In this document: piece after piece, positions 22,806 to 42,187 of the stretch
Position numbering within the stretch: the stretch's first letter is position 1
Layout of the letters: each line of letters opens with the position of its first letter
Assembly: GCF_041821065.1 (NCBI RefSeq)
Contig: NZ_JBGUAX010000004.1
Location: 62,001 to 126,000, forward strand
Length of the DNA stretch: 64,000 nucleotides
Reading direction: 5' to 3'
From: Egicoccus sp. AB-alg2
GTDB lineage: Bacteria; Actinomycetota; Nitriliruptoria; Nitriliruptorales; Nitriliruptoraceae
Position numbers and translations under genes: made by a program
Notes under the pieces: generated by a model
Seen by the model: the letters and a program-made list of their open reading frames with translations, nothing else
Databases searched by the model: none
Told to the model about the DNA's origin: nothing

Positions 22806-22822
22806 GGGGACTCCTCCGGAAC

Positions 22823-23755
22823 TCATGGCCGGCCGTCGACGAAGCACACCCACCCATCGGGGGTGTCGTGCACGTCGAGGTGGTGCATGCCACCGGCCGA
22901 CCAGAGCGGCCCGGCGGGGGTCAGCAGCGGGGCGGGCAACGGCGTCTCCGCGTACGTCGACGGCGTCAGTGCCTCGATGTGGATGCCCAGCACCGCCCGG
23001 CCGTAGCCGCGGCGGCAGTCCTGCGCGAACCGCACCAGGCGATCGCCGACGGGAACCGGTCGCCCGGCCGGGCGGGCGAGGCCGGCGTCGCCGGTGACGA
23101 CCGGGCTGGCGGGGTGCTCCGTCCACGGCCCGCGTGGGTGGGGTGCGTGAAGCAGCCGCAGTTCGTCGTTGGTGTGGTCGCGGCTCGTCTCGACCAGCAG
23201 GTACCAGTGCCCCTGGTGCTGGAACGGCGAGGCGTCCTTGTACGCCGCGCCCCGCAGCAGGATTCGATCGAGCTCCCAGACGGTGGGGAAAGCACGGGCG
23301 CGGTAGAGCCGGAGCGTCCCGTCGAAGGAGGACTCCGGGATCATGAACACCTCGTCGTCCGCCGCGAACACCGCCGGGTACGACAGGTGGAAGGGCTCCT
23401 CCAGCACCGGGCCCTCGTAGGTCCAGCGGCGGGCATCGGCGCTCGTGGCCAGGCCGACGAAGCCGCGCCGCTGCCCGGTCGCCACCGCCTCGAAGAAGAG
23501 GAACCAGATCCCGTGCTGTCGGATCGCGAAGGGGTCGGCGACCAGGCCGAGCCCGGCGCGTGCCAGCGTGTCCTCGTCGAAGACGGGCCGGAGGGCCGCG
23601 GCGTCCAGCGCCAGCGGGGACGGCGCGACCCCGACGCCGATGCGCCACGCCGGTGTCGGGCTCAGACGCAGGCGCACTGCCGGCGGGATGCGCGTCTGCA
23701 GCTGCCGGCGCACGGGGGCGGGCATGACCCGCCGAAGGCTCGCCTGGAGGCTCAT
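22823..23755 (-). CDS. GH43-like five-bladed propeller protein (GINT1-N-like)
   Basis: A 310-residue protein. It has repeated propeller-type strands with acidic and aromatic residues: VADPFAIRQHGIWFLFFE, GPVLEEPFHLSYPAVF, EVFMIPESS and YKDASPFQHQGHWYLLVE. These resemble the glycosyl-hydrolase 43/68-like domain found with sugar formyl- or glycosyltransferases in polysaccharide loci. No signal peptide is evident, so it probably acts in the cytoplasm on a sugar substrate. Catalytic acids cannot be assigned with certainty. ATG 23755 overlaps the upstream stop (ATGA) and has GAGGAG. Confidence 0.75.
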   Translation of the reverse strand: MSLQASLRRVMPAPVRRQLQTRIPPAVRLRLSPTPAWRIGVGVAPSPLALDAAALRPVFDEDTLARAGLGLVADPFAIRQHGIWFLFFEAVATGQRRGFVGLATSADARRWTYEGPVLEEPFHLSYPAVFAADDEVFMIPESSFDGTLRLYRARAFPTVWELDRILLRGAAYKDASPFQHQGHWYLLVETSRDHTNDELRLLHAPHPRGPWTEHPASPVVTGDAGLARPAGRPVPVGDRLVRFAQDCRRGYGRAVLGIHIEALTPSTYAETPLPAPLLTPAGPLWSAGGMHHLDVHDTPDGWVCFVDGRP

Positions 23756-24975
23756 GCGCCCCTCCTCGCGCGTAGCCCGGCCAGCGCCTGCTGCGTGCGT
23801 CCTCGCACGGTGCGCAGTCCCGCGACGGCGGCGGGCGACAGGCGCTGCGCCGCCTGCCGCCGCAGCCCGTGGCGAGCGCGCTCGGCCCGTTCGGTCAGCG
23901 CGGCCGACATGCCCGTTCGGGCGGCGTGGAACTCGTGCAGTTCGTGGCTGCCGTCCGCCCACAGCAACTTCGCCCGTGTCTCGCCGGCCCCGAACTCGGC
24001 GCGGCGGAAGACCGGTTCGCCGACCAGATCGCGCATGACCGCGACGTCGAGCAGATTGCCCGGAGCGAATGCCGCGAAGTCGTCGTCGTAGCCGATCTTC
24101 AGCGAACGGACGACGCCATCCTTCTGGAGGTTGAACTGGAACGCGACCAGGCGGTCGCCGAACCACAGCAGGTCGAGCCGCAGCCACCCCTGCGCTGCCG
24201 CCCAGCGTGCGACGTCGGTGTAGAAGGTGCGCAGATGTGGAAGGCACGCGATCGCCGTGCCCTGGGCGCCCTTCCAGCCGGACGCTTCGATGGCGAAGCA
24301 CCGCTCGAGAAGGTCCGCAGGCACCACCGCCTCGCGGAAGACCTCGTGTCGAACCCGCCAGCGTTCCTCGGCCCGGCGACGCCGCCGCCGCGCATCCTTG
24401 CGGAAGCTGCTGCTGAGACCGGCCTCGACTTCTTCCCACGACCGCGTCAGATCCACGTACGGAGCAAGCACCGGCGCGGCGAGCCGCTGTCGCGGCAGAG
24501 CCTTTGCCAGTTCCCGCCGCACCAGCGCGACGGGCCAGTCCTCGGGGCACCACTCGCGCCAGACGACCTCGCGGGGCCGGTCGTCGACGAGCCGGCGCAC
24601 CAGGGCCGCCAACACGTCGTCGTCCTCGACCACCGGCTGGCCGGCGGGATGATGGGGACGGAGCGCCGGGATCCCGACGACGCCGCGGCGCCGTTCGAAG
24701 GGCAGCACGCCGACGAGGCGCCCCGCCCGGCGCGCGGTCAGGTAGCCCGGGCGGCCGGTGCCGAACGCGCGGGCGTGACAGGCCTGCCACGTGGGCCAGT
24801 CCTGCGGCGGCCGGTGCAGCTGCCGGCACAGCTCGGCCCACTCGTCCGCGAACGACGCCGCGTCGTCGTGGCGACGCACGACGATGGCTTGGCGGTGCGG
24901 TTCCCGGGACCGGCCGGTGACGGCGCGCCCGCGAGGGGCACGCCGCCGCCGGAGCACCTCGGCGCCGACCGCCAT
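23752..24975 (-). CDS. CelD/BioF2-like GNAT acyltransferase
   Basis: A 407-residue protein of the Acetyltransf_6 group, which often sits in exopolysaccharide operons (CelD in cellulose-type systems). An N-terminal GNAT-like part (YLTARRAGRLVGVLPF) is followed by LSSSFRKDARRRRRRAEE and a second GNAT-like core (FYTDVARWAAAQGWLRLDLLWFGD, LVAFQFNLQKDG). The basic run near residue 190 is unusually long. It probably acylates a sugar or lipid-linked intermediate. ATG 24975 has GGAGG nine bases upstream and starts one base after the Wzz-like stop. Confidence 0.8.
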   Translation of the reverse strand: MAVGAEVLRRRRAPRGRAVTGRSREPHRQAIVVRRHDDAASFADEWAELCRQLHRPPQDWPTWQACHARAFGTGRPGYLTARRAGRLVGVLPFERRRGVVGIPALRPHHPAGQPVVEDDDVLAALVRRLVDDRPREVVWREWCPEDWPVALVRRELAKALPRQRLAAPVLAPYVDLTRSWEEVEAGLSSSFRKDARRRRRRAEERWRVRHEVFREAVVPADLLERCFAIEASGWKGAQGTAIACLPHLRTFYTDVARWAAAQGWLRLDLLWFGDRLVAFQFNLQKDGVVRSLKIGYDDDFAAFAPGNLLDVAVMRDLVGEPVFRRAEFGAGETRAKLLWADGSHELHEFHAARTGMSAALTERAERARHGLRRQAAQRLSPAAVAGLRTVRGRTQQALAGLRARRGA

Positions 24976-24976
24976 G

Positions 24977-26476
24977 TCAGCCGGCCTCCCGGGCCGCCGA
25001 CTGGCTGGGCGTCGACGGCGCCGGACGCGACCGGCGCCATGACGGCGTCGCCGGCGCGTCGACGTAGACGTAGCCCAGCGGGAGGTCGTCGGCCAGGTGC
25101 AGCAGCTCGGCGGCCTCGGCCACGTCGTCGAGCGAGCGGTCCCGGTGCACCGCCAGCAGCACCGGGTGGGGTGGCTCGCCGGCGGGACGGAGGCTGGGGC
25201 CCTGGTCGACCAGCACGGCCGGCTCGCGCACGACGACGAGGTCGGCGGTGCTGGAAGCCGGCGGCTGCGCGGATGGCACGACCCGGACGAACCCGGTGCC
25301 CACGACGAACGCCTGCGCCGCGCCGCTCTCGTCGAACGTCGTGCGGCGGTCACGGTCGCGCGAGCGCTTGTTGTCGACCCCGCACACCAGGACGCGGCGG
25401 CCACCGCGGGCCGCGGCCTTGGCCACGGCGATCGCCACGCCCTCGGCGTCGTCGTGGGGCCCGACCCCGCGCACGTACAGCGTCGGTGTCCCGACGGGCT
25501 CGAGCAGCTGCAGCTGTCGCCAGACCCGTGCCAACCGCAGCCCGCGTCCCCGCCGTGAGCCGGTGAACCGGCGACGGCCGCTCAGCTGGCCGCGTCGGGG
25601 TGCCAGCGTGCCGACGTGCGGCGCGGCCAGGACCGTGGCCGGGTCGCGGGCGTCCTGGACCGTCGGCGACTGCTCCATGCGTCGCCAGGCGATGGCCACC
25701 CCGACGAGCAGCCCCAGCAGCAGGCCGGCGGCGGCCAGCACCGGCAGCCCGGGCCGGGTGGGAGTCGCCTCCGCGTCGAGGTCCGCGGCGCGGATCATCC
25801 CGGACCCGAGCAACTCGGCGTCGGTCGCCACCTCACGGGCGCGCAGTTGCACGGCGAGCAGGCTCTCGAAGACGGCGGTCCGCTCGGCCGTCAGGGCGGC
25901 TTCCTCGGCCGCGCTGGTGACCGCGAGCGCCTCGTCGACCTCGGCGAGCCGCTCCTCGAGTGTCGCCTGGAACGGCGCCAGCTCCGCGGCCGCACGCTCG
26001 GCCCAGGCGAGCCCGTCACGGGCCAGCGACGACTCCAGGGTGGCCACGAACGTGTCGAGTGTCCGGTTCGCCTCCTCGGCGGTCGGCGCCGTCGCCGACA
26101 CCGCCAGACCGCCGTCGTCGACGGCGCCCATGACGGTGACCCGGCGCTGCACCGTGTCCGGGCTCACGCCGAGCTGCTCGGCGACCTCGGCCGACAGGGA
26201 CGCCGAGCGGGCCCGGTCGGTGACGGCCGCGACGGAGCCCGGGAAGCCCGGCTCGGGTCGGCCCGATGCGAACAGGCCGGCCGTACGGGTGTCCGCCAGG
26301 TACAGCGTGCTCTCCGCGCGGTAGTCGGTGGGTAACACGACCGCCAGAGCGGCACCGACCAGCGCACCCAGCAGCGCCAGGGTGACCACCAGGCGCAGGT
26401 GGGCGCGCAGCACCCGACTGAGCCCGACGTGCCCCTCGTGGGGGCGCGAGGACGGAGGAAGGACGGTCTCGGACAT
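24977..26476 (-). CDS. Wzz-like polysaccharide co-polymerase with degenerate BY-kinase domain
   Basis: A 499-residue membrane protein. One membrane helix lies near residues 28-50; a periplasmic-type region with coiled-coil helices (about 150-220) follows, and a second helix spans about 245-263. This is the chain-length-determinant layout. The cytoplasmic C-terminal part looks like a bacterial tyrosine-kinase domain (LYVRGVG, RRVLVCGVD), but the Walker A GEGKST is replaced by HDDAEG-type residues and no Tyr cluster ends the protein. Kinase activity is therefore unlikely. ATG 26476 has GGAGG. It probably sets chain length with the ligase/polymerase proteins. Confidence 0.8.
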   Translation of the reverse strand: MSETVLPPSSRPHEGHVGLSRVLRAHLRLVVTLALLGALVGAALAVVLPTDYRAESTLYLADTRTAGLFASGRPEPGFPGSVAAVTDRARSASLSAEVAEQLGVSPDTVQRRVTVMGAVDDGGLAVSATAPTAEEANRTLDTFVATLESSLARDGLAWAERAAAELAPFQATLEERLAEVDEALAVTSAAEEAALTAERTAVFESLLAVQLRAREVATDAELLGSGMIRAADLDAEATPTRPGLPVLAAAGLLLGLLVGVAIAWRRMEQSPTVQDARDPATVLAAPHVGTLAPRRGQLSGRRRFTGSRRGRGLRLARVWRQLQLLEPVGTPTLYVRGVGPHDDAEGVAIAVAKAAARGGRRVLVCGVDNKRSRDRDRRTTFDESGAAQAFVVGTGFVRVVPSAQPPASSTADLVVVREPAVLVDQGPSLRPAGEPPHPVLLAVHRDRSLDDVAEAAELLHLADDLPLGYVYVDAPATPSWRRSRPAPSTPSQSAAREAG

Positions 26477-26485
26477 GGTGGCCTC

Positions 26486-27691
26486 CTAACGGGTGGTGGC
26501 GGGCCCCTCGAGCACGAGCGGCGAGCGACGAGCGGACGGGTCGGGCGACACCGGGCGGTTCTCGGCCGCCAGGCACAGCACGATGGCGAGCAGCGCGTAC
26601 ACGGCCTTCTGCAGCTCCCAGTGCAGGGGCACCATCGCCACCAGGAGTGCGGCGATCAGTACGCGGGCGAAGACGCGGTCGAGACGGGGCATCGAGGTGG
26701 TGCGCAGCACGGTGACGACGATCACCAGCAGGAGCAGCGCGAGGCCGACGACGCCCAGTTCCATGCCGACCGACAGGAACGTGTTGTGCGCCCGTTGCGG
26801 GATGCCGGTCCGGTTGGCGATCTCCAGGTCGCCGGTACCGGCGCCGATGCCGCCGACGGGGTGGGTGCCGATGGACCCGACCGCCGCCTGCCACAGCGGC
26901 AGCCGGTGGCTGAGGTCGCCCTCGCGCAGTTCGTCGGCGACCGTGAACAGTCGCGCTTCGGTCTCCGGCGGGACGGCCGCGATCACCACCGCGCCGGCGG
27001 CCAGCAGCCCGGCGATCGCGACGAGCAGGTGCGCGGCGGTACGACGCTGGACGGTCAGCGGCACGATGGCCAGCCCGACCGCGAGGACGACCAGTGCGCC
27101 GCGGCTCCCCGTGAGCAGAGCACCCAGGGCACCGAGCGGCAGGTACGCCGCGGACAGCCAGCGCTCCCGGCCCGGCCCGGCCCGCCTGGCGAGGTACCAC
27201 GCCACCGGCACGCCCAGGGCCAGCAGACTCCCGAGGTCGTTCTCGTTGAAGCCGAAGGCGCTGTGCCGGTCCGTGGCCGTCTCGCCCAACGTCAGCAGCA
27301 CGCCGACCGCGCCGACGGCACAGCCCAGCACCCAGGCCCGCAACAGCCGGACCGTGTCGCCCGGGATGTCGGCGAACTCCCACACGAGCAGCAGCAGCAG
27401 GACCAACTGCACGAACGTCACGACGTAGGTCCGGGTCCGCTCCGCGTCGAGCGTCCACAGCAGCGACAGGATCGCCCACCCCGCCAACGCGCCGGCGAGC
27501 ACGTGCACGTCCAGGATGCGGCGGTGCCAGCCGTGGAGGAACAGCGTCACGGCGGCGGTGGCGCCGGCCAGCAGGCCGAGCAACCTCGGCGCCGTTCCGA
27601 TGGCCGGCAGCAGGATGCTGCCCTGCCACGGCAGCGTGAAGACCGTGGCGACGAGCAGCCAGAACGTCGTCCTACGCAGCGACCGGTGCAT
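26486..27691 (-). CDS. O-antigen ligase / Wzy-like polymerase
   Basis: A 401-residue protein with about ten to twelve hydrophobic segments. Family marks are FGFNENDLGSLLALGVP, LTGSRGALVVLAVG and the periplasmic loop GTHPVGGIGAGTGD...RAHNTFLSVGMELGVVGL, with the His-Asn pair of Wzy_C/WaaL proteins. It would polymerise repeat units or ligate glycan to an acceptor outside the membrane. ATG 27691 overlaps the upstream glycosyltransferase gene by 20 bases. A second ligase-like domain occurs in the fusion protein at 19924-22002. Confidence 0.87.
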   Translation of the reverse strand: MHRSLRRTTFWLLVATVFTLPWQGSILLPAIGTAPRLLGLLAGATAAVTLFLHGWHRRILDVHVLAGALAGWAILSLLWTLDAERTRTYVVTFVQLVLLLLLVWEFADIPGDTVRLLRAWVLGCAVGAVGVLLTLGETATDRHSAFGFNENDLGSLLALGVPVAWYLARRAGPGRERWLSAAYLPLGALGALLTGSRGALVVLAVGLAIVPLTVQRRTAAHLLVAIAGLLAAGAVVIAAVPPETEARLFTVADELREGDLSHRLPLWQAAVGSIGTHPVGGIGAGTGDLEIANRTGIPQRAHNTFLSVGMELGVVGLALLLLVIVVTVLRTTSMPRLDRVFARVLIAALLVAMVPLHWELQKAVYALLAIVLCLAAENRPVSPDPSARRSPLVLEGPATTR

Positions 27692-28829
27692 CGACCACCC
27701 TTTCGAGGACTCGGAGGTACGCGCGGGCCACGTCCATGGCCCGGTAGCGCTCGACGGCGGCCGGCGGAGGCCGGTCCGGATCGTCGAGTGCGGCCGCGAT
27801 GGCGCTGGCCATCGAGGTGGCGTCGCCCACCGGGACCAGCCGTCCGTGCCGACCGTCGTCGAGCACCTCGGCGGCGCCGCTCGGACAGTCGGTGGCGACC
27901 ACCCGCGTGCCGCACGCCATCGCCTCGATGAGCGCGCCCGGCAGCCCCTCCCGCCGGGAGGACAGGACGAACACACCGGCCCGCGCCATGTAGCGGTACG
28001 GGTTGGGGTCGAAGCCGGGCATGGCGACGTCGTCGGCGACGCCGAGCTCCGCCGCGCGCGTCAGGAGCCCTTCGCGTTCCGGGCCCTCGCCGAGCACGAC
28101 GAGGCGGACCGGTCGCTGGCGACGCACCTGCGCGAAGGCCTCCAGCAACGTCCCGAAGTCCTTCGGTGGTGCGAGCCGGCCGGCGCCCAGGACCACGGGC
28201 GGCGCTCCGTCCTGGAACCACGGGTGATCCAGCGGCAGGCGCGCCCGCAACGTCACGTCCGGGCCCAGCGTCGCGTTCGGGATGACGTCGATGCGGCCAC
28301 GGTCGATCTCGCAGTAGCTCGCGAGGTCGTCGGCCATGCCACGCGAGCACGCCACGACGGCGTCGGCGGTCCGGTAGCAGTGCCGTGACAGCGCGTCCGC
28401 GACGTGGGCGGCTGGACTCGGCCCCAGCGGCAGCCGCAGCGACATCGTCGTCGACGGGCGCAGGACCACGCGCGTGTCCGACCGTGCGGCCCGGGCGGCG
28501 AGCGCCCCGACGACGTTGGCGTGGTCGATGGTCGGCATGATCCAGCCGGGTCGGCGCACGCGCAGGTAGCGCACCAGGGTCGGCAGCGCGCCGCGCAGAC
28601 GTCGCTGGTCGAGGTCGACCAGGTTCACGTCGGGTGGGACCTCGGCGGCCAGCGGTCCGCGCTCGCTGCCGACCACGAGGTCGACGTCCAGCCCGAGGCG
28701 ACTGAGCGCATGCCCGAGCGTGAGGGTGATGCGCTCGCCCCCGCCGCCGGACAGGTCGGGGAGGAACAGCGCCAGGGGCCGGTGATGGGTGCGTGCACGG
28801 CTGGCGTAGCTCCAGCTGACGGCGGTCAC
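27672..28829 (-). CDS. glycosyltransferase family 4
   Basis: A 385-residue GT-B enzyme. The N-terminal domain has LFLPDLSGGGGERITLTL (acceptor side). The C-terminal domain has VVLGAGRLAPPKDFGTLLEAF and the retaining-GT4 donor motif SSRREGLPGALIEAMACG, with the E-x7-E pattern. It transfers an activated sugar to a lipid-linked intermediate in the cytoplasm. GTG 28829 overlaps the flippase stop (GTGA) and has GAGGAGG at good spacing. Confidence 0.92.
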   Translation of the reverse strand: MTAVSWSYASRARTHHRPLALFLPDLSGGGGERITLTLGHALSRLGLDVDLVVGSERGPLAAEVPPDVNLVDLDQRRLRGALPTLVRYLRVRRPGWIMPTIDHANVVGALAARAARSDTRVVLRPSTTMSLRLPLGPSPAAHVADALSRHCYRTADAVVACSRGMADDLASYCEIDRGRIDVIPNATLGPDVTLRARLPLDHPWFQDGAPPVVLGAGRLAPPKDFGTLLEAFAQVRRQRPVRLVVLGEGPEREGLLTRAAELGVADDVAMPGFDPNPYRYMARAGVFVLSSRREGLPGALIEAMACGTRVVATDCPSGAAEVLDDGRHGRLVPVGDATSMASAIAAALDDPDRPPPAAVERYRAMDVARAYLRVLERVVDAPVAA

Positions 28830-30382
28830 AGGGGGACCTCCTCGGCGTCGGGTCGCGCGGCGCGGACGTGGGCGGTGCCCAGGAGGGCGACGACCACCCG
28901 CCGACTGCGGGGTGCCGTGACGAGCGCGGCGAGTTGGCCGACCAGGTCGCTCAGGGCCGTCGTCACCCGCCACCTCGGTGACAGGCGGGTGGCGAGGAGG
29001 ATCGCGACGGCGGCGGCCAGCAGCGATCCGGCCAGTACCAGTGCCGGCGGCAGGCCGAGCCCGCGCAGCCCCTGCGACGTTGGCCAGACGAACGCGCCGA
29101 CGGCCACCGTGAGCACGGCCGCGGGGGCGTGGAGGGTGGCCCATGCCGACCAGGACAGGTCGATGCGCTGCAGGCTCAGGCGCGTCAACACGGTCGTGTT
29201 GAGGGCCATGGCGGCCAGCGCGCCGGTCGCGACGCCGGGGAGTCCCCAACGCTGGCCGACGACCGCTCCGGTGACGACGGCCGCGGCGTACAACCACCGC
29301 AGGCGCGCCAACCGGTAGACCGCCCCGGTGGCCACGATGACGCTGTCGGTGACGGCCTCCGACGCCTTCAGGTACATGCCGAAGACGATGATGTTCAGCG
29401 CCGTCCGCATCGGCAGCCACTGCGGTCCGAGCAGCAGCAGCACGATCTCGTGCGTCAGCAGCCACACGGCGACGGTCGTCGGGACCGTGAGCGCCGCCAG
29501 CGACGCCGTGCTGACGCAGAACATGTTGCGGACGCGGTGGCGTTCGTCCTGCACCGCCGCCATGGAGGGGTAGAGCACCTCGCCGAGGATGTGTCCGAAC
29601 ACCGAGGCCGGCATGCGCATCAGCCGGTAGGCCCGTTCGTAGAGGCCCAGTGCGTGGGCGCCGAGCCAACGCCCGACGACGAGGTTGTCGGCCTCGTGGG
29701 CCACGATGTAGCCGGCGTGCGAGATGGTGTAGCCCAGGCCCGTCCCGAGCAGGTCCCGCGCGGGGCCCCGGCGCAGCAACGGCAGGAAGGGGTGCGGCGC
29801 CACCAGCCAGAGCAGCACGATCTGCGCCACGGACGCCACCAGGTGCCCGCCCGTCAGGGCCCACACGCCCCAGCCGGCGGCGGCCAGGCCGACGGTGACG
29901 ACGCCGTAGCCGACGACGTAGCCCACCAGCTGGATCACGGCGAGCGGGCGGAAGCGCAGCTGCCGGCTGAGCACGACGTCGCCGAGGCTGAGCGTGCGCA
30001 CGAAGTAGGCCAGGGCCATCACCTGCAGCACCGGCGCCAGGCCGTCGAGTCGCAGGGCGTCGCCGATGCGCCCGGCGGCCAGGGCCACGCCACCGAAGAC
30101 CACGACGGCCGCGCCGACCTGCATGGTGAGCGCGACCCGCAGATGCTCGGGGCGCATGGTCTCGAGCTTGATCAGCGCCGTGGACAGCCCGGCCGTCGAC
30201 AGCAGGAAGGCCATGTTGACGACCACGAACGTGGCGGCCACGAGGCCGAACGACTCCGGAGCGATAAGCCGGGCGAGAATCGGCAGCGTGATGAGTTGGA
30301 CGAGCATCTGCCCGCCCTGCCCGAGGAAGAGGTAGGCGAGTCCTCCCACGGCACGGCGCGCCAGCGGCTGTTCGTCGCTCAT
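28826..30382 (-). CDS. Wzx-like polysaccharide flippase
   Basis: A 518-residue membrane protein with about twelve to fourteen helices, of the MOP superfamily (polysaccharide transporter). It starts ARRAVGGLAYLFLGQGGQ, and LARLIAPESFGLVA is a typical first-loop motif; YERAYRLMRMP occurs mid-protein. It would flip undecaprenyl-linked repeat units across the membrane. ATG 30382 overlaps the upstream stop (ATGA). With the Wzz-like and ligase/polymerase proteins it makes a Wzx/Wzy-type assembly line. Confidence 0.92.
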   Translation of the reverse strand: MSDEQPLARRAVGGLAYLFLGQGGQMLVQLITLPILARLIAPESFGLVAATFVVVNMAFLLSTAGLSTALIKLETMRPEHLRVALTMQVGAAVVVFGGVALAAGRIGDALRLDGLAPVLQVMALAYFVRTLSLGDVVLSRQLRFRPLAVIQLVGYVVGYGVVTVGLAAAGWGVWALTGGHLVASVAQIVLLWLVAPHPFLPLLRRGPARDLLGTGLGYTISHAGYIVAHEADNLVVGRWLGAHALGLYERAYRLMRMPASVFGHILGEVLYPSMAAVQDERHRVRNMFCVSTASLAALTVPTTVAVWLLTHEIVLLLLGPQWLPMRTALNIIVFGMYLKASEAVTDSVIVATGAVYRLARLRWLYAAAVVTGAVVGQRWGLPGVATGALAAMALNTTVLTRLSLQRIDLSWSAWATLHAPAAVLTVAVGAFVWPTSQGLRGLGLPPALVLAGSLLAAAVAILLATRLSPRWRVTTALSDLVGQLAALVTAPRSRRVVVALLGTAHVRAARPDAEEVPL

Positions 30383-31560
30383 CCGCGCACCGCGTCGACC
30401 GTGACCCGCTGCAGGAGGGCCTCCCACTGGTCGAGGACCCGTTCGCGGTCATGGCGGGCGCGCACGTGCGCCTGGCCGTGGGCGCCCATCGCCGCCCGCG
30501 TCGCCGCCGGGAGTGCGCACGTCCGGGCGAGCCGGTCGGCGAGTGCGCGCCAGTCACCGACGTCGACGAGGAAGCCGCTCACCTCGTCCTCGACCACCTC
30601 CTCGGTGCCGCCGGCGCGGGTGGCCACCACCGGCACCTCGCGCATCAGGGCCTCGATGGCGGCGTTGGGGGTGCCCTCCCACGCCGACGACGACACCAGG
30701 GCGTCGCTGGCGGCCAGCAGGTCGGCGACGTCGTCGCGCCACCCGAGCAGGTGCACGTCGGCCGTGATGCCCAGGGCACCGGCCAGATCTGCCAGTGGCG
30801 AGGTGTCACCGTCGCCCGCGATCAGGAGCCGGAACGCCGACCCGGCGCGCCGTGCCCGGGCAGCGGCCCGCAGCATGGTGGCGTGGTCCTTGCGCGGCGC
30901 GATGTGCCCCAGCGCGAGGAAGACGAACTCGTCGGGGGCGATCGCCAGTTCGCCCCGCACCCGGGCACGGGTGTCCGCATCGACCGGTGCCACGTCGTCG
31001 ACGGCGTTCGGGATCACGACCAGCCGATCCGGATGCACGAGGCCGCGCTCGACGAGTCGACGCGCCACACGCGCGGCATTCGTCGTCGTCACCGCGGCCA
31101 GGCCGTCGGTGCGCCGGATCCACCACTCGCGCGGGGCACCCCCGAAGCGGTCGGCGCGGATGGAGGAGACGACGGCCGGCACGCCTGCGGCGCGCCCCGC
31201 GAGGCGGCCGAGCAGGTTGGCCTGGTAGTCGAAGCTCACGACGGCATGGGGACGCAGCCGACGCAGCAGCAGCGCGCCGGCGGTGAGCGCGCTGGCGGCC
31301 CGGACGGGCCGGCGGGCCGGCAGCTCCACGAGCGGGATCCCGGCCGCAGCGAGGTCGTCCTCGTGACCCGGCCAGTCGAGCATCCGCGCCACCGTCACGC
31401 GATGACCGCGCTCGGCGAGGCCGACCGCCGCACGGACCAGCTGCGTCTCCGCGCCGCCACGCGCCACGCTGTTCGCGAGGAACACCAGCCGCAGCCCCGA
31501 ACCGGCGACAGCAGGCACCGACGAGGCGGACTCGCCCGTTCGGGAGACGACGCCGGTCAC
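30379..31560 (-). CDS. glycosyltransferase family 4
   Basis: A 393-residue GT-B enzyme. N-terminal VFLANSVARGGAETQLVRAA marks the Gly-rich acceptor loop. LALGHIAPRKDHATMLRA and SSSAWEGTPNAAIEALMREVP give the donor-binding GT4 motif with the E-x7-E pair. It probably adds one sugar of the repeat unit. GTG 31560 overlaps the dehydratase stop (GTGA). The substrate is unknown. Confidence 0.92.
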   Translation of the reverse strand: MTGVVSRTGESASSVPAVAGSGLRLVFLANSVARGGAETQLVRAAVGLAERGHRVTVARMLDWPGHEDDLAAAGIPLVELPARRPVRAASALTAGALLLRRLRPHAVVSFDYQANLLGRLAGRAAGVPAVVSSIRADRFGGAPREWWIRRTDGLAAVTTTNAARVARRLVERGLVHPDRLVVIPNAVDDVAPVDADTRARVRGELAIAPDEFVFLALGHIAPRKDHATMLRAAARARRAGSAFRLLIAGDGDTSPLADLAGALGITADVHLLGWRDDVADLLAASDALVSSSAWEGTPNAAIEALMREVPVVATRAGGTEEVVEDEVSGFLVDVGDWRALADRLARTCALPAATRAAMGAHGQAHVRARHDRERVLDQWEALLQRVTVDAVRG

Positions 31561-33428
31561 GCGCGCAGCTCCTGCGCGGAACGGGCCGGAGCACCGGCGA
31601 CCAGGGCGTGCAGGGCCTCGGCACAGGCGGTCTGCTCGTGGGCGTCGGCCAGCCGCCGGAGCCGGTCGAGACCCGCGGCCAGGTCCCGCGGCGCCAGCAG
31701 CGGTGTGTGCACCTCGTCGATCTGGGGGTGGGCGGTCGGCCGCTGGTCCTCACCACCAGCGACCAGTTCCTCGGCCAGCTTCTCCCCGGGCCGGACGCCG
31801 ACGTACTCGATGTCGATCTCGCGGCCCGGCGTCGCGCCGGCGAGCAGGATGAGGCGGCGGGCGAGATCCACGATCCTCACCGGCTCGCCCATGTCGAGCA
31901 CGTAGATCTCGCCGCCGCCCGCGAGCACGGCCGCCTGCAGTACCAGCTGCACGGCCTCGCGGGCGCTCATGAAGAAGCGCGTCATGTCGGGATGGGTCAC
32001 GGTGACCGGTCCGCCGTCCTCGATCTGGCGCACGAACGTCGGCACCACGCTGCCGCGGCTGCCCAGGACGTTGCCGAACCGGACGGCGCAGTACGCGGCC
32101 CCTGGCGGGCGTCGGTGCAACATCAGCTGTTCGCTGAGGCGCTTGCTGGCCCCCATGACGCTGGAGGGGTTGACCGCCTTGTCGGTCGAGATGGTCACGA
32201 ACCGTTGGACGTCGTAGGTCGCCGCGGCGCGCAGCAGGTTGTCGGTCCCGAGCACGTTGGTGTGGACGGCTTCCGAGGGGAACGCCTCGAGGATGGGCAC
32301 GTGTTTGTGCGCCGCGGCGTGGAAGACGACCTCTGGTCGCTCGGTGGCGAACAGTTCCTGCACGAAGGCGTCGTCGCGGATGTCGCCCAGGACGGGCACG
32401 GCGGTTCGGTCGAGTCCGACGACGACGTCGTGCAGGTGCGTCTCGTCGTGATCGAGCAGGACCAGGCGGCCAGGTTCGAAACTCGCGACCTGGGCGGTGA
32501 TCTCCGAGCCGATGGAGCCGCCGGCGCCGGTGATGAGCACACGGCGACCGCGCAGGAGCCGACCGATGGCGGCCATGTCGATCTCGACCTGGGGCCGTCC
32601 GAGCAGGTCGTCGATGGAGATGTCGCGGATGTCGCGCAGGGACGGCGCGGCCCCGAGCACCTCGTGGACCGTGGGGAAGACGCGGACCGTCAGGCCGGCC
32701 TCGCGCGCACGGTCGACGGCCCGCCGCACCTCGGCCCCGTCGAAGCGTTCGAACGCCAGCAGGGCCTGCTCGGCGTCGTGCGTGCGGGCCGCGGTCGGCA
32801 GCATGGCGAGCGGGCCCTCGACCGGGACGCCGGCGATCCAGCGCCCCCAGTGGCGGGGTTGCGGCGTCAGCACGGCCACGGGGACCAGCCCCCGTTCCGG
32901 TTCGTTCTGCATGGCCTGGATCAGGGTGCGGGCCGGCTCGATGGCGCCGACGAGCACGACGCGCGTGGGTTCAGCGGCCGCGGCACCGGGGCGGGCGCGC
33001 CCGAAGAGGCGCCGGCGGAAGCGCGTGGCGCCGAACACCAGCAGCGTCAGGACGGCGCCGAGCAGCGGCACGCTGCGCGGCAGTTGCTCGGAGCCCGGGT
33101 GCAACAGGCCGATGACGAAGAGGACCGCGCCAGCGTCCAGCACGGCCGACACCACGACGCGGGCGTCGTGCGCACCGGCCTGGCTCCACACCTGCCCGTA
33201 GAGGCGCCGCCGAGCGTTCGCCCAGGCGTGGAGGAGCAGCGCGACGGGCAGGAACAGCGCGTAGCCGCGCCAGCCGGACGGCGGGACCTGCCCGTCGAAG
33301 CGCAGCAGCAGCGCCACGGCGTAGGCGACCGCGATGCCGAGCAGGTCCAGCGCGAGCAGCCCGGGCTCCGCGAACAACTGCTGGATGAACCGCCGAGACG
33401 TTCGCATGGCGTCGTGACGGCGCTCCAT
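31557..33428 (-). CDS. membrane nucleotide-sugar 4,6-dehydratase (FlaA1/CapD/WbpM type)
   Basis: A 623-residue protein and first gene of the large operon. Residues about 20-135 hold four membrane helices. A CoA-binding-like domain follows (VVLVGAIEPARTLIQAM), then a Rossmann SDR domain with VLITGAGGSIGSEI near residue 296, HAAAHKHVP and ISTDKAVNPSSVMGASK. The catalytic Tyr is replaced by Met in MGASK, as known for the long FlaA1/WbpM group. It makes UDP-4-keto-6-deoxy sugars, a likely substrate for the DegT aminotransferase. ATG 33428 has GGGGGA. Confidence 0.92.
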   Translation of the reverse strand: MERRHDAMRTSRRFIQQLFAEPGLLALDLLGIAVAYAVALLLRFDGQVPPSGWRGYALFLPVALLLHAWANARRRLYGQVWSQAGAHDARVVVSAVLDAGAVLFVIGLLHPGSEQLPRSVPLLGAVLTLLVFGATRFRRRLFGRARPGAAAAEPTRVVLVGAIEPARTLIQAMQNEPERGLVPVAVLTPQPRHWGRWIAGVPVEGPLAMLPTAARTHDAEQALLAFERFDGAEVRRAVDRAREAGLTVRVFPTVHEVLGAAPSLRDIRDISIDDLLGRPQVEIDMAAIGRLLRGRRVLITGAGGSIGSEITAQVASFEPGRLVLLDHDETHLHDVVVGLDRTAVPVLGDIRDDAFVQELFATERPEVVFHAAAHKHVPILEAFPSEAVHTNVLGTDNLLRAAATYDVQRFVTISTDKAVNPSSVMGASKRLSEQLMLHRRPPGAAYCAVRFGNVLGSRGSVVPTFVRQIEDGGPVTVTHPDMTRFFMSAREAVQLVLQAAVLAGGGEIYVLDMGEPVRIVDLARRLILLAGATPGREIDIEYVGVRPGEKLAEELVAGGEDQRPTAHPQIDEVHTPLLAPRDLAAGLDRLRRLADAHEQTACAEALHALVAGAPARSAQELRA

Positions 33429-33539: not shown

Positions 33540-33561
33540 TCGTGGGCGCGGACGAAGAACG

Positions 33562-33596
33562 GGCCCCGGCCGTCCGACGGGTGGACGGCCGGGGCC
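33562..33596 (-). terminator. strong hairpin after the SLH/lyase gene
   Basis: A perfect 14-base-pair stem (33562-33575 with 33583-33596) and a seven-base loop, 51 bases past the stop of the minus-strand gene ending at 33647. It separates that gene from the promoter of the large operon. No T-tract follows. The wider gap 33429-33646 also holds box 1 and the candidate -35. Confidence 0.8.
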
Positions 33597-33646
33597 TCGG
33601 GTCACCGGGAGGTGAACGGGGTTGCGGTGGGGTTTCGGACGGGTTG

Positions 33647-35377
33647 CTAGCGCTGCCAGCCGGCCTGGGCGGCGATCCGGTCGCGCAGCGCCTGGCGCTC
33701 CGCGGCCGTGCCGACCGGGTCGGGCCGGTAGCTGTGGTCCGCCGACGGGTTCATCGTGACCCGTGACGCATCGGACGTGTCGGCCGTCACCCCGGAGGCG
33801 AACCAGCTGCCGACGTCCTTCGCATACCCGCGACCCGAGCCCTCGTTGCTCGCGAAGATCGCGCGGTAGGGCTTGGTGTGGTCGAAGATGTTGCGCTCGG
33901 ACAGGACCTGCGCCCCGGACGAGGACACGATCGCCTCACCGTACGAGCCGTTCCAGTCCCAACGGTCGAACCAGTTGTTCCACACGTGGAACCGGCCGAA
34001 GCGCGCCAGCGGCTGCCGCTGGGAGTTGCGGTCGAAGTGGTTGTGGTGGATGGAGACGAGGTCGGCCGCCTCGGACCGGTTGGTCGGGTCCGTGGCGAGC
34101 AGGATCGTCTTGTCCCACCGGACGAACTTGTTCCACGACACCGTGATGCGGTTGGCCTGACGCAGGATGTCCACCGCGCCGTCGAGGTTGCCCGGACCCG
34201 AGCCGAGGAACGTGTTCTTGTGGATCCACACGCGATCGGTGCCCGGGTTCGGCCAGCCGATCGTGAAGGCGGAGTTGCCCTGGTAGTAGCGGTGCTCGGC
34301 GGCGAAGTCGAACACCAGGTTCGTGGCGATCACGTTGTTGGCGTTGATGAAGAAGCCGTGGTTCTGGATGATCGGGCGCGCACCGCGACCGTCGATGGTC
34401 GTGTTCGCGGTGGGTCGGACGGGGCTCTGCAGGCGGATGCGCGCCCCGGTGCCCGGCGGGAACACCTTGGGGTCGAAGCGGATCCACTTGGCCCCGCTGG
34501 CCTGCGCCGCGGCCCGCAGCGAGCCGGCACCGCTGTCGTTGGTGTTGGTGACCCAGATGGTCTGGCCGCCCTGGCCGCCGGTCGTGCGGTGGCCGTAGCC
34601 GACGAGTTCCTTCAGCAGTGCCGCGTGGCTGTCCGGATCCGTGGACCCGCTCGACGGCGGCGCCGGCGCGGGCTCGGTCGGCGCGGGCGCGGGCTCCGTC
34701 GGCGCCGGCTCCGGCGGTGCCGACGGCACCTTGGGACCGGTGCCCGGGCGCAGCGCCCGGTCGAGGAAGGAAGCCATCTGTCCCCGCAACACGTCGCTGT
34801 TCGTGCAGAAGTATCCGGGGCGGCAGCCGGCGGTGACGCGGGCGGCGGCCAGCGCCCGGACGTTGGCCTCGTGGACGGAGCCCTCGATGTCGTAGAAGGT
34901 CGGCGCCTTGGCGGCCGGCAGGTCGAAGGCACGGACGAGCATGGAAGCCATCTGTCCGCGCGACACGCTGGCGCCGGGTCGGAAGCTCCCGTCGGCCTTG
35001 CCCTCGATGATGCCGGCCTCGGCGGCGGCGGCGATCGCCCGGGCGTGGAAGTGGTCGGCGGCGACGTCCTGGAAGTCGGCCGAGCCCTCGGGTGCCAGTT
35101 CGAGCGCCCGCACGATGAGCGCGGCGGCCTGGGCACGGGTCACGGCGTCACCGGGGCAGTAGCGTCGCGGCGCGCAGCCTTCGACGACACCTTCTTCGGC
35201 GAGTCGGTCGATGGCGTCCGCGTGGACGTTGTCCTCGAGGTCCCGGAAGCGCGTGTCGCTGGCGTCGGCTGGGCCGGCGAGGGCCACGAGGCTCGATGCG
35301 AGCACGGCGAAGGACAGTAGGACGACTAGGGTGCGCGCGCGTGTGAGCGGCGTCCCCCGAGCGTTGGACAGCAGCAC
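33647..35377 (-). CDS. secreted SLH-domain protein with pectate-lyase-like (PL1) domain
   Basis: A 576-residue exported protein. A signal peptide (about residues 14-39, ending PADAS) precedes three SLH modules (about 43-95, 103-155, 163-213) that would bind cell-wall secondary polymers. A linker of repeated EPAP/TEPAP units follows, then a PL1 right-handed beta-helix (about 260-576). The lyase part keeps LDGAVDI (Ca-binding), VSIHHNHFDRN and RQPLARFGRFHVWNNW with RxPxxR. GTG 35377 has GGAGA and directly precedes the signal peptide. It ends in AGWQR, the point where the sister protein continues into a ligase domain. Confidence 0.88.
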   Translation of the reverse strand: MLLSNARGTPLTRARTLVVLLSFAVLASSLVALAGPADASDTRFRDLEDNVHADAIDRLAEEGVVEGCAPRRYCPGDAVTRAQAAALIVRALELAPEGSADFQDVAADHFHARAIAAAAEAGIIEGKADGSFRPGASVSRGQMASMLVRAFDLPAAKAPTFYDIEGSVHEANVRALAAARVTAGCRPGYFCTNSDVLRGQMASFLDRALRPGTGPKVPSAPPEPAPTEPAPAPTEPAPAPPSSGSTDPDSHAALLKELVGYGHRTTGGQGGQTIWVTNTNDSGAGSLRAAAQASGAKWIRFDPKVFPPGTGARIRLQSPVRPTANTTIDGRGARPIIQNHGFFINANNVIATNLVFDFAAEHRYYQGNSAFTIGWPNPGTDRVWIHKNTFLGSGPGNLDGAVDILRQANRITVSWNKFVRWDKTILLATDPTNRSEAADLVSIHHNHFDRNSQRQPLARFGRFHVWNNWFDRWDWNGSYGEAIVSSSGAQVLSERNIFDHTKPYRAIFASNEGSGRGYAKDVGSWFASGVTADTSDASRVTMNPSADHSYRPDPVGTAAERQALRDRIAAQAGWQR

Positions 35378-35532: not shown

Positions 35533-35546
35533 GGGACGTTCGTCCC
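35533..35546. promoter_or_regulatory. DosR-like box 2: GGGAC-GTTC-GTCCC
   Basis: Exact inverted repeat; the symmetry extends to six-base arms (GGGACG/CGTCCC). It is 156 bases upstream of the SLH/lyase start on the minus strand, in the divergent region with the XRE gene. Confidence 0.65.
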
Positions 35547-35637
35547 CCGCCAAATGGGCACCAACTCGACCTCGCGTGCGAGTGGTGCGCAGGTCGAGGC
35601 GACCGGAGCCGTGACAGCGCCCGGCGGCCGCCCACGC

Positions 35638-35651
35638 GGGACGTCTGTCCT
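35638..35651. promoter_or_regulatory. DosR-like box 3: GGGAC-GTCT-GTCCT
   Basis: One mismatch from the GGGAC-N4-GTCCC consensus, in the last base. It lies 88 bases upstream of the chosen start of the XRE regulator gene, which supports that start over the longer frame beginning at 35554. Confidence 0.55.
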
Positions 35652-35739
35652 CGGGGACCCGGACGCCGCCGTCCTACCGTGCGCCGCGGTGCGCGAGCCG
35701 TGGCCGGCGGCGCGCCACGGGCTCTACGGGGAGGAGGGC

Positions 35740-36129
35740 GTGGCCGACACCCTCGGACGGTCGCGGCTCGGCTCCATCGGTCGGGTGATTCGCGAGCAGC
35801 GCCTCGCTCGGGGCCTCACCCAGCGCGAGGCGGCGGCCCGCGCCGGCGTCAGCGTCGGAGCCTGGCGCAGCACCGAGTCGGGCACGCGGCGGCCGCGTCC
35901 GCAGACCTTCGCCGCCATCCTGCGCTCCCTCGAACTCTCCGCCGACGACGCGCGCCACGCGTCGGTCGAGTCGCCGTACCTCGACGTCGCCCAGGCTCGC
36001 GAGGAACTCGTGCGGCGTTGCCGCGACGAACTGCCCGACACCCACGTGGAGCTCGTGCTGCGACTGGTCGACGCCTTCGTCGAGGCCGCGGCCGGGCGTC
36101 CACCGTCCCGGCCAGGTCGCGAGGAATGA
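35740..36129 (+). CDS. XRE-family (Cro/CI-type) transcriptional regulator
   Basis: A 129-residue protein. Residues about 12-66 form a helix-turn-helix: IGRVIREQRLARGLTQREAA, AGVSVGAWRSTESG and RRPRPQTFAAILRSLEL. The C-terminal half is helical and acidic, possibly a dimerisation region. GTG 35740 follows GGGGAGGAGG. The frame is open further upstream, but the extra 62 residues are Gly/Ala/Pro-rich, unlike a protein domain, and would cover box 3. Its target is unknown; it lies divergent from the SLH/lyase gene and just before the ATP-grasp operon. Confidence 0.82.
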   Translation: MADTLGRSRLGSIGRVIREQRLARGLTQREAAARAGVSVGAWRSTESGTRRPRPQTFAAILRSLELSADDARHASVESPYLDVAQAREELVRRCRDELPDTHVELVLRLVDAFVEAAAGRPPSRPGREE

Positions 36130-40117: not shown

Positions 40118-40746
40118 GTGGGCTCCGATCCGAGGTGCTCGGCGGGTGACGCGACCGCACCGCCGCGCAGGGCGCCGGCCGTCTGCAACACGATGCGCAG
40201 GTCGCCGAGCAGGGACCGGCGGCGCAGGTACGCGGCGGACAGCCGCAGCTTGGCCGGCAACACCACCTCGACGTAGTAGCGCTCCGGGTCCGGGTGGCCG
40301 GCCAGCAGTTCGCCCTCGCACCGGAACGCCAGACTCGCCGGATCGGTCAGGCCCGGGCGGTGGCGCAGGACCTCGGCCTGCTCCGGGCGCGTCGGGTCGA
40401 CGTACTCCGGTACCTCGGGACGCGGCCCGACGAAGGACATCTCGCCCCGTACGACGTTGACCAGTTGTGGCAGTTCGTCGAGCTTGTGCTGGCGCAGCCG
40501 GCGCCCGACGGCGGTGGTCCGCGGGTCGGTCGCGCCGACACTGAGCTGGCCCTCGCGGTCGGCGCCCACCCGCATCGTGCGGAACTTGAGCAGGGTGAAC
40601 GTCGTGCCGCCCCGTCCCACCCGTTGCTGGCGGTACAGCACCGGGCCGCGCGACGACCACCGGATCAGCGCGGCCACGAGCGCGAGCACCGGTGCCAGCA
40701 GCACCAGCAGTGCGACGGCCAGGACCACCTCCAACCAGCGGGGCAT
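40114..40746 (-). CDS. initiating sugar-1-phosphate transferase (WcaJ/PglC type)
   Basis: A 210-residue member of the bacterial sugar transferase family, short form with one N-terminal membrane segment (about residues 5-27). Marks are GPVLYRQQRVGRGGTTFTLLKFRTM, RLRQHKLDELPQLVNV and GEMSFVGPRPEVPEY with the Asp-Glu catalytic pair. It puts the first sugar-1-phosphate on undecaprenyl phosphate and so starts the repeat unit. The start overlaps the epimerase stop (TGATG). Confidence 0.94.
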   Translation of the reverse strand: MPRWLEVVLAVALLVLLAPVLALVAALIRWSSRGPVLYRQQRVGRGGTTFTLLKFRTMRVGADREGQLSVGATDPRTTAVGRRLRQHKLDELPQLVNVVRGEMSFVGPRPEVPEYVDPTRPEQAEVLRHRPGLTDPASLAFRCEGELLAGHPDPERYYVEVVLPAKLRLSAAYLRRRSLLGDLRIVLQTAGALRGGAVASPAEHLGSEPT

Positions 40747-41747
40747 CAGCTGGCCTGCTGCGCGAGCCGCTCCCTCACCGGTGGGCGCGGACCGGGCAGG
40801 TCGGCGAGGTGCCAGCGGACCTGCGCGGCCAGCCCGACCTCGGGCGTGACGGTGGCCGTGTACCCGAAGGTCTCGGCCGCCTTGCTGGTGTCCGCGAAGG
40901 TGCGACGCTGGTCGCCGGGTCGGGCCGGCAACTCCACGATGCGCGGCGCCACGGCCAGCTCCCGGCCGAGCAGGTCGATCGCCTCGCGCAGCTCCAGCGA
41001 GACGCCGCCGCCGATGTTGTAGACCTCGCCGACCTCGGCACCGTCGATCGCGGCGAGGGTGCCGCGCACGCAGTCGTCGACGTAGGTGTTCGAGCGCGAC
41101 TGTCGGCCGTCACCGTACATCTCCAGCGGCACCCCCCGCCGAAGCCGCTCGACGAACCGGTGATAGGCCATGTCCGGCCGCTGCCGTGGTCCGTAGATCG
41201 AGAAGTAGCGCAGGATGGACGCGGGGAAGTCGTAGTTGGCGGTGTAGGCCAACACCAGGTGCTCCGCGGCGAGCTTGGAGACGCCATAGGGCGAGACCGG
41301 GCGGGTCGGCATGGTCTCGTCACCGCAGGCTTCCACCCCGTAGACCGACGAGGTCGACGCCTGGACGAAGCGCGACACGCCGACGCGCATCGCCGCCTTC
41401 ACCAGCCGCGCCAGGCCGATCAGGTTGCATTCCACGTAGCTCGGCGCGTCCATCCAGCTCGTCGGCAGGCCCGCCATCGCGGCCTCGTTGACGACCACGT
41501 CGATGCCCTCGAGCAGCGCATCGAGGTCGCCGGTGCGCAGGTCGAGCTCCACGAACCGAAAGCGTGGCTCGTCCAGCAGGCCGGCGAGGTTGGCCAGTTT
41601 GCGTTCACGGGCGTAGGTCGGGACGAACGCGTCGACACCGACGACCTCGTCGCCGCGGGCGACCAGTGCCTCGGCGAGATGTGACCCGATGAACCCCGCC
41701 GCGCCGGTCACGAGCACCCGCCGCGGCATCCCTGACGTCTGCTGCAT
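40746..41747 (-). CDS. NAD-dependent nucleotide-sugar epimerase/dehydratase
   Basis: A 333-residue extended SDR. The NAD loop is VLVTGAAGFIGSHLAE near residue 10, the catalytic Ser region ASTSSVYG and Tyr/Lys in YGVSK are present, and SIYGPRQRPDMAYHRF follows. It is closest in appearance to UDP-glucuronate or UDP-glucose 4-epimerases. It likely supplies an epimerised UDP-sugar for the sugar transferase encoded next. ATG 41747 is preferred to a much longer basic N-terminal extension from 41849; ATG 41729 is an alternative with poor ribosome-site spacing. Confidence 0.92.
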   Translation of the reverse strand: MQQTSGMPRRVLVTGAAGFIGSHLAEALVARGDEVVGVDAFVPTYARERKLANLAGLLDEPRFRFVELDLRTGDLDALLEGIDVVVNEAAMAGLPTSWMDAPSYVECNLIGLARLVKAAMRVGVSRFVQASTSSVYGVEACGDETMPTRPVSPYGVSKLAAEHLVLAYTANYDFPASILRYFSIYGPRQRPDMAYHRFVERLRRGVPLEMYGDGRQSRSNTYVDDCVRGTLAAIDGAEVGEVYNIGGGVSLELREAIDLLGRELAVAPRIVELPARPGDQRRTFADTSKAAETFGYTATVTPEVGLAAQVRWHLADLPGPRPPVRERLAQQAS

Positions 41748-41823
41748 TGCCTGCCCCGTTCGTCGGCCGATGCGGCGTCGTCTCCGCGGCGCCCAGCGAA
41801 CGGTCCGGCGAGGGGGTGGGGCA

Positions 41824-41837
41824 GGGACAGCTGTCCT
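41824..41837. promoter_or_regulatory. DosR-like box 5: GGGAC-AGCT-GTCCT
   Basis: One mismatch from the consensus; the inner 12 bases GGACAGCTGTCC are a perfect palindrome. It lies in the 98-base gap between the small hypothetical gene and the epimerase gene, 76 bases upstream of the epimerase start. Confidence 0.6.
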
Positions 41838-41845
41838 CCGACTGC

Positions 41846-42187
41846 TCACCCGCGGGTGTGCGCGACCTGGTCACGGGCGCGCAGCAGCAGGGCCAGCGCC
41901 CGCTGGCGGGTGATCTCCTCGAGGTCGGCGGTCGTCGCCACCAGCGTGACGGCGTACCCGAGCACGTCGAGGTCGCGGCCACAGGCCTCCACCAGGTCGT
42001 GGACGTCCTGCTCGGCGGTGCCGCCGTCGCGGGCCCGCGCGACGGCCAGTCCCGCGACCCAGTGGGCGGCGCGCTGGACCTCGGTGCGACCGGCCAGTGA
42101 ACGCCGGCGGCTTGGCGGTCGACCGGGACCGCCCGCGCCGGCGGACTGCAGCAGCAGCACTGCCGACCACGCCCAGCGGGAGCCCAT
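41846..42187 (-). CDS. small hypothetical protein
   Basis: A 113-residue frame with ATG 42187 and GAGG six bases upstream. The first 12 residues are hydrophobic (WAWSAVLLLQ), then a basic Pro/Arg stretch, then a helical C-terminal half (VHDLVEACGRDLDVLGYAV). I recognise no family. It may be a small helical protein or a chance frame; the ribosome site and its fit between two boxes argue for a gene. The frame is open further upstream, but that part is Pro/Gly-rich. Confidence 0.5.
   Translation of the reverse strand: MGSRWAWSAVLLLQSAGAGGPGRPPSRRRSLAGRTEVQRAAHWVAGLAVARARDGGTAEQDVHDLVEACGRDLDVLGYAVTLVATTADLEEITRQRALALLLRARDQVAHTRG

Follow-up and report, generated by a model that had tools for sequence, protein, structure and literature searches.

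A predicted SLH-anchored PL1 lyase resembling the Vi antigen depolymerase VexL in a glycan island of Egicoccus sp. AB-alg2

Lyases that belong to the biosynthesis of acidic polysaccharides include AlgL, the alginate lyase of Pseudomonas, which differs in both fold and family from the PL1 lyase described here, and RbmB of Vibrio cholerae is also placed in a different PL family. RbmB, encoded in the biofilm gene cluster, is a beta-helix lyase whose substrate is the VPS of the cell itself, as stated in an excerpt of PMC11637428, but it is a far weaker structural match to the domain studied here (Z 20.5, rmsd 3.3, 241 aligned). The closest described system is VexL (PDB 6fi2), a PL1 beta-helix which, according to an excerpt of PMC9597891, is the Vi antigen depolymerase of Achromobacter denitrificans, itself a Vi producer. 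Its host thus produces the polymer that VexL cuts, and this is the likeness we propose for the lyase described below. A passage of PMC8746771 names VexL a Vi-antigen lyase, and one of PMC7949094 names it a hydrolase involved in capsule modification. VexL is described as a periplasmic enzyme linked to a capsule of the ABC-exported type, whereas the lyase of Egicoccus sp. AB-alg2 carries SLH repeats and is encoded in a Wzx/Wzy-type island.

A diderm provides a known example, VexL, of a lyase that acts on the capsule polymer of its own producer, and PL1 lyases of capsule loci are an already known kind; it is the wall anchor and the fused partner that are unusual here. Judging from the sequence comparisons that follow, we consider it rather probable that a wall-tethered, VexL-type lyase acts on the cell's own uronate-containing glycan. 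If this is true, a wall-anchored counterpart and a lyase-Wzy_C fusion in an SLH-rich species would extend the principle beyond the periplasm and make it possible to test directly by what means such a cell sets or releases surface polymer. There would also be a specific reason against annotating such genes plainly as 'pectate lyase'.

The lyase gene and its domains

The gene lies in a stretch of 64,000 nt (contig NZ_JBGUAX010000004.1, positions 62,001 to 126,000), the whole of which is referred to here as the window. Its features are as follows.

33647..35377, minus strand: SLH-anchored PL1-like lyase gene (ORF and translation; Pfam SLH and PF00544)
35258..35377, minus strand: signal peptide, approximately residues 1-40 (hydrophobic segment 17-35; cleavage site by eye)
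34751..35245, minus strand: three SLH repeats, VTRAQ 79, VSRGQ 138 and VLRGQ 196 (Pfam and a genome-built SLH profile)
34628..34750, minus strand: Pro/Ala/Glu/Thr-rich linker (translation)
33650..34615, minus strand: PL1 right-handed beta-helix domain, VexL-like (Pfam, PDB sequence searches, AlphaFold2 model, Foldseek and VIA-align)

The ORF is intact, running on the minus strand from a GTG at 35377 to a stop at 33647 and specifying 576 aa. GGAG precedes the GTG, and the GC3 of 0.93 is a coding-like composition. There is a single N-terminal hydrophobic segment (residues 17-35). The SLH match of the protein has an E of 7.1e-18, above the gathering score, with two stretches passing alone (Pfam), and all three repeats were detected with a profile made from SLH repeats found elsewhere in the genome (22 listed). 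The PF00544 match covers residues 321-498 (E 4.6e-21; 75.8 bits against a cut-off of 24), and the AlphaFold2 model of the PL1 domain (pLDDT 83.5, pTM 0.88), which replaced an earlier fold model built from five sequences (pLDDT 74.7), predicts a right-handed parallel beta-helix. A first-pass annotation made from the sequence had outlined SLH modules, a Pro/Glu linker and a PL1 domain, and this outline is borne out, with a signal peptide in addition. The protein thus combines three repeats with a signal peptide, as expected of SLH attachment to the cell wall. Such anchoring is also made plausible by the rest of the genome, which has 34 ORFs with SLH matches on many contigs (74 repeat matches) and two PF04230 genes above cut-off, candidates for a CsaB-type pyruvyl transferase. 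A literature search for SLH or exopolysaccharide in Nitriliruptor or Egicoccus returned nothing.

Relatives, distribution and active-site residues

VexL is the closest solved structure by sequence (phmmer 4.6e-30, next 8.3e-18), by a five-member profile (2.9e-68, next 3.8e-37), by the Foldseek E-value of the model (3.2e-14, next 3.1e-13) and by VIA-align (Z 39.2, rmsd 2.1, 301 aligned), where the runner-up is the allergen Jun a 1 (Z 37.0, rmsd 2.5, 301 aligned). The 25 PL1-type entries heading the VIA-align list have Z-scores of 30-39, and pectate and pectin lyases reach 31-37; the surface adhesin PfbA also turned up in the fold comparison. The pectate lyases PelC (2pec), 1bn8 of B. subtilis, 3zsc of T. 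maritima and Bsp165PelA (3vmv) share the fold and, where aligned, RxPxxR and the Lys. By TM-score (Foldseek), several pectate lyases and other PL1 structures equal or exceed VexL, and the first, poorer model (pLDDT 74.7) superposed badly on it (rmsd 14.4). The second PL1-like domain of the window, described below as the fused paralogue, also finds VexL first (1.1e-30, next 1.2e-17). The lyase is therefore nearer to VexL than to the pectate lyases, a placement weakened by long branches, by Jun a 1 and by the TM-scores.

Three trees were compared. In the tree of 37 rows, the two window domains, three copies from a genome of another family of the class (G011), VexL and three Caballeronia proteins are separated at 100/98 from 27 pectate-lyase-type rows, which comprise three solved pectate lyases (3zsc, 3vmv and 7bbv) and 24 genome hits; Jun a 1, a pollen protein, falls on the VexL side. 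The same split has 100/99 in a second tree, without Jun a 1 and Caballeronia. In the first tree, which included four far Microbulbifer/Myxococcales rows left out of the other two, the 27 rows are together at 99/98, and VexL pairs with Jun a 1 at 92/83. All three trees omit duplicates of the window and G011 copies (L054, L055 and L065), two overlapping second frames (L049m1x0 and L056m2x811) and the weak Saprospiraceae rows L034 and L035; loci L036 and L053 yielded no alignment row, and PelC and 1bn8 are absent. Since long branches come together in all three trees and the VexL group was picked after the best hits were known, the support is good but not final, and the grouping may be partly an artefact.

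Across the class, sampled by 66 genomes (33 of them at least 90% complete), the domain was found at E <= 1e-10 in only two, with five copies in total: two in the genome of the window and three in G011. Three congeners were searched and have no domain at that threshold. All five copies lie at polysaccharide-assembly loci. In G011, the genes of an ABC-2 exporter and its ATPase directly precede copy a, and copy c follows a Wzy_C gene, which it overlaps when both are taken as longest ORFs and which is adjoined by a sulfotransferase gene; copy b is situated between copies a and c. Glycosyltransferase and sugar-transferase (WcaJ-like) genes are nearby, as labelled by eye from the translations. The pair that is fused in the window, Wzy_C and PL1, is therefore adjacent in G011. 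The G011 copy that adjoins the Wzy_C and sulfotransferase genes (L038 5284-6699; C26:274283-275698) has a CBM_5_12 match and, by eye, an N-terminal hydrophobic segment.

In a sample of the phylum, 13 of 396 genomes match at 1e-20 or better, the window genome and G011 included. Seven of the 24 comparison loci were viewed by eye; they specify exported-looking proteins, and no polysaccharide-assembly genes were seen within the less than 4 kb inspected. Among 72,556 plasmid records there were 10 matches, the best three being those of Caballeronia (34% identity). An SDR gene stands immediately before each of these three lyases; its comparison with TviC, made for one record, gave 437 bits, under the cut-off of 760. 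A glycosyltransferase/ABC-exporter locus precedes in two of the three records; in the third, reading began at the record start. One scan of named genomes gave six weak relatives in Microbulbifer, Myxococcales and Saprospiraceae (29-42% identity over parts), and no phage had a domain match at 1e-5.

Active-site columns were read from the 37-row alignment, with 28 rows for comparison (the 27 pectate-lyase-type rows and Jun a 1).

34220..34222, minus strand: His386, in place of the first calcium-ligand Asp (alignment column)
34169..34183, minus strand: D399-G-A-V-D403, second and third calcium-ligand positions, kept (alignment)
34001..34018, minus strand: R454-Q-P-L-A-R459, the RxPxxR catalytic-Arg motif (alignment)

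The residues typical of PL1 lyases, the catalytic Arg of RxPxxR and the preceding Lys, are conserved in the SLH-anchored protein (R454, R459 and K423). The first-pass annotation had both RxPxxR and the calcium-binding residues retained, and this stands in full for the former and for two of the three latter, D399 and D403. The first calcium-ligand column is Asp in 28 of 28 comparison rows and also in the three G011 copies, VexL and the three Caballeronia rows, and is His386 here, so the set of three acidic ligands seen in PelC-type enzymes is incomplete (H386, D399, D403). All three columns are Asp in each of the 28 comparison rows, among them the solved pectate lyases 3zsc, 3vmv and 7bbv, from which the SLH-anchored protein differs in this respect. 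VexL has Asp, Asp and Asn in these columns, against His, Asp and Asp here, and shares the Lys and the first Arg but has Gln at the second Arg, which the SLH-anchored protein keeps. The Caballeronia rows have Asp, Ala and Asn, again with Gln at the second Arg. In the fused paralogue the calcium columns hold Thr, His and Leu, both Arg of RxPxxR are kept and the Lys is replaced by Arg. Because only two of the three ligands are present, the SLH-anchored lyase may need calcium less than a pectate lyase does, as has been said of VexL, which reportedly works without metal.

His386 also makes a serious rival of the view that the protein is a non-catalytic, wall-anchored beta-helix that binds, organises or retains surface polysaccharide, with the fused paralogue as a polymer clamp on Wzy_C. 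The fused copy, lacking all three ligands, and the presence of the adhesin PfbA and the allergen Jun a 1 among the fold matches would agree with such a role. However, the SLH protein keeps R454, K423, R459 and two calcium ligands, and deviations at the calcium positions are found also in Caballeronia and in VexL, a depolymerase according to the excerpt of PMC9597891. On balance we regard a purely binding role for the SLH-anchored protein as rather unlikely, and a contrast between a catalytic free paralogue and a non-catalytic fused one as plausible.

The glycan island and the probable substrate

The lyase gene lies inside a Wzx/Wzy-type glycan island extending from about 18.6 to 41.9 kb of the window, in which three features are of particular concern.

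18650..33428, minus strand: glycan island, minus-strand block (Pfam, NCBIfam)
19924..22347, minus strand: paralogue, a membrane-anchored PL1-like domain fused to Wzy_C (O-antigen ligase) (Pfam; likely ATG at 22002, by eye)
40746..41849, minus strand: predicted UDP-glucuronate 4-epimerase of the island (nearest solved 6zl6 and MoeE5 6kv9; carboxylate-pocket residues)

The minus-strand block encodes a DegT (DegT/PseC-like) aminotransferase, the PL-Wzy_C fusion, two acetyltransferase-fold proteins, a GINT1_N-like protein, a Wzy_C protein, glycosyltransferases, a flippase and a Polysacc_synt_2 (CapD-like) dehydratase. Other products of the island are an epimerase, a bacterial sugar transferase and a formyltransferase-like protein (Pfam, NCBIfam). 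The fused lyase-ligase noted in the first-pass annotation is confirmed by Pfam matches to PL1 and Wzy_C, and its lyase domain is 42% identical to that of the SLH-anchored protein. No literature joining a Wzy or O-antigen ligase with a pectate-lyase domain was found, which is weak evidence of absence. As with VexL, the lyase is encoded at a surface-polysaccharide locus, and the same holds in G011. The island looks set up for a 4-amino-4,6-dideoxy sugar, so the polymer would not be a plain polyuronate.

This setting bears on the reading suggested by the family name, in which a secreted PL1 enzyme held by its SLH domains lets the cell feed on pectin or polygalacturonate from its surroundings, in the manner of plant-biomass degraders. 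The PL1 domain with RxPxxR, Lys and two calcium ligands is compatible with catabolism, as are the Z-scores of 31-37 to pectate and pectin lyases, and SLH domains can hold carbohydrate enzymes on the cell (an excerpt of PMC6339884). Yet the first calcium ligand is missing, the nearest solved and plasmid relatives are capsule-type lyases, the only two PF00544 genes found in the 4.8-Mb genome both lie within the glycan island, and no genes for pectin transport or degradation were detected among the 24 window proteins scanned with Pfam. We therefore consider a catabolic pectate lyase unlikely.

A uronate in the polymer is suggested by the island epimerase, the nearest solved structures of which are 6zl6 (8.4e-71), which we take to be the UDP-GlcA 4-epimerase of Bacillus cereus, and then MoeE5 (6kv9; 1.1e-56), with TDP-glucose 4,6-dehydratase (1.5e-45) and WbpP (4.9e-37) more distant. 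MoeE5 is a UDP-GlcA 4-epimerase in which four residues contact the substrate carboxylate, according to a passage of PMC7984243. Three of them are kept in the island protein (Thr126, Ser127 and Ser128), and Thr178, a main-chain contact, is replaced by Ser. The island protein also keeps the Ser in whose place the decarboxylases have Glu. An epimerase-like gene of G011, about 11 kb from copy a, also matches MoeE5 (2.2e-66), and neither the island nor the G011 protein reaches an NCBIfam cut-off among the families shown. The window has no UDP-sugar 6-dehydrogenase; the three of the genome are on contigs C3 and C11. Two of these were classified, and one is closest to the UDP-glucose 6-dehydrogenase TuaD (462 bits against a cut-off of 700) and exceeds the general nucleotide-sugar dehydrogenase cut-off. 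Galacturonate is thus a likely component of the island polymer, as far as these predictions reach.

The kinship with VexL, the assembly loci around all five class copies and the predicted epimerase together lend better support to what had been a guess of the first-pass annotation, that the enzyme may trim or release the cell's own polysaccharide and not plant pectin. In the reading we prefer, the exported lyase would be attached to the cell wall through its three SLH repeats, and its Arg-based PL1 site would carry out beta-elimination at 4-linked uronic-acid residues of the cell's own acidic surface polysaccharide. The target residue would most likely be galacturonate, supplied via the island's predicted UDP-glucuronate 4-epimerase, and cutting would set the polymer length or free the polymer at the wall. 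The sister domain, tethered to the membrane on the Wzy_C protein, would encounter this polymer during its exit from the membrane; through the fusion, the polymerase or ligase would itself carry a related domain that is probably calcium-free and may be non-catalytic. Counting against this reading are His386, the long branches, Jun a 1, the TM-scores and the poor first superposition; the absence of a dehydrogenase from the window, the 4-amino-4,6-dideoxy sugar and the failure of the epimerase to reach an NCBIfam cut-off; and a transcription unit that is separate by layout, together with the lack of the domain in the congeners at E <= 1e-10. An attack on the uronate polysaccharides of neighbours, the cell's own coat being hit only incidentally, would suit an exported SLH protein encoded apart from the biosynthetic block but is very unlikely given that the five class copies and the best plasmid relatives are at polysaccharide-assembly loci.

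Transcription unit and upstream palindrome

The sequences flanking the lyase gene contain the following elements.

33560..33600 (approximate), minus strand: terminator-like GC hairpin after the lyase gene (fold z -4.99)
35533..35546, no strand assigned: palindrome GGGACGTTCGTCCC, with GGACGAACGTCC within it on the gene strand; common to other SLH genes
35554..36129, plus strand: divergent HTH_31 regulator (Pfam; likely true start about 35740, by eye)

The HTH_31 regulator diverges from the lyase gene, which, to judge by layout, forms a transcription unit by itself. The lyase gene had been credited with its own box and terminator. A GC hairpin does follow it, but there is no T run behind the hairpin, and the 35533 box does not belong to this gene alone: each of the four exact genomic copies stands ahead of an SLH gene. 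Its two 6-bp arms form a perfect inverted repeat with two bases between them, and it lies about 155 nt before the start codon. The genome has four exact copies of the 12 bases GGACGAACGTCC (in the window and at C6:214588, C2:202631 and C10:48033), and at 4/4 sites an SLH ORF lies downstream in the same orientation. The boxes of the window and of C10 are inside the longest ORF yet upstream of the likely signal-peptide start (by eye). One of the other three box-linked proteins has a 5'-nucleotidase C-terminal domain, and two have SLH matches only. A palindrome with a different centre is found 117 nt upstream of another SLH ORF. Taken as a whole, the class GGACGNNCGTCC shows no genomic enrichment (21 places, compared with 19 for the reversed control), which leaves the AA/TT-centred form as the only notable one.

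The box survey examined 34 of 60 sites, with about 1.5 kb downstream of each. An SLH ORF follows the box at one of three sites in the congeners, making five of seven across the genus, and at none of the 27 examined sites elsewhere in the class, where in two cases the locus stops within 150 nt of the box. The box therefore looks like a small genus-level element of SLH genes and suggests a small SLH-protein regulon. We take the palindrome to resemble DosR-type boxes. An upstream RNA element was also considered and rejected: there was no Rfam match at gathering in the window, nor at E up to 1 around the gene, and the 195-nt leader folds no better than shuffled sequences (z 0.33).

The palindrome, the fused paralogue and the wall-anchored lyase can be combined in a bolder proposal, which we regard as doubtful, of a controller in two parts that sets the length of a Wzy-made polysaccharide. 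In what is presumed to be a monoderm, the VexL-like domain on Wzy_C, devoid of calcium ligands, would hold the chain at the membrane while it grows, and the sister domain anchored in the wall would cut it on its way across the wall, so that wall thickness and no counting protein would fix the length. Expression of the cutter would be tied to a few SLH surface proteins via the shared upstream palindrome.

Two other genes were noted in or beside the island. At 22823-24841 on the minus strand, within the island, is a match to the GINT1 N-terminal family (PF24793), presumably named for a plant glycosyltransferase, and at 42268-43263 on the plus strand a LuxR-type response regulator is encoded at the island edge.
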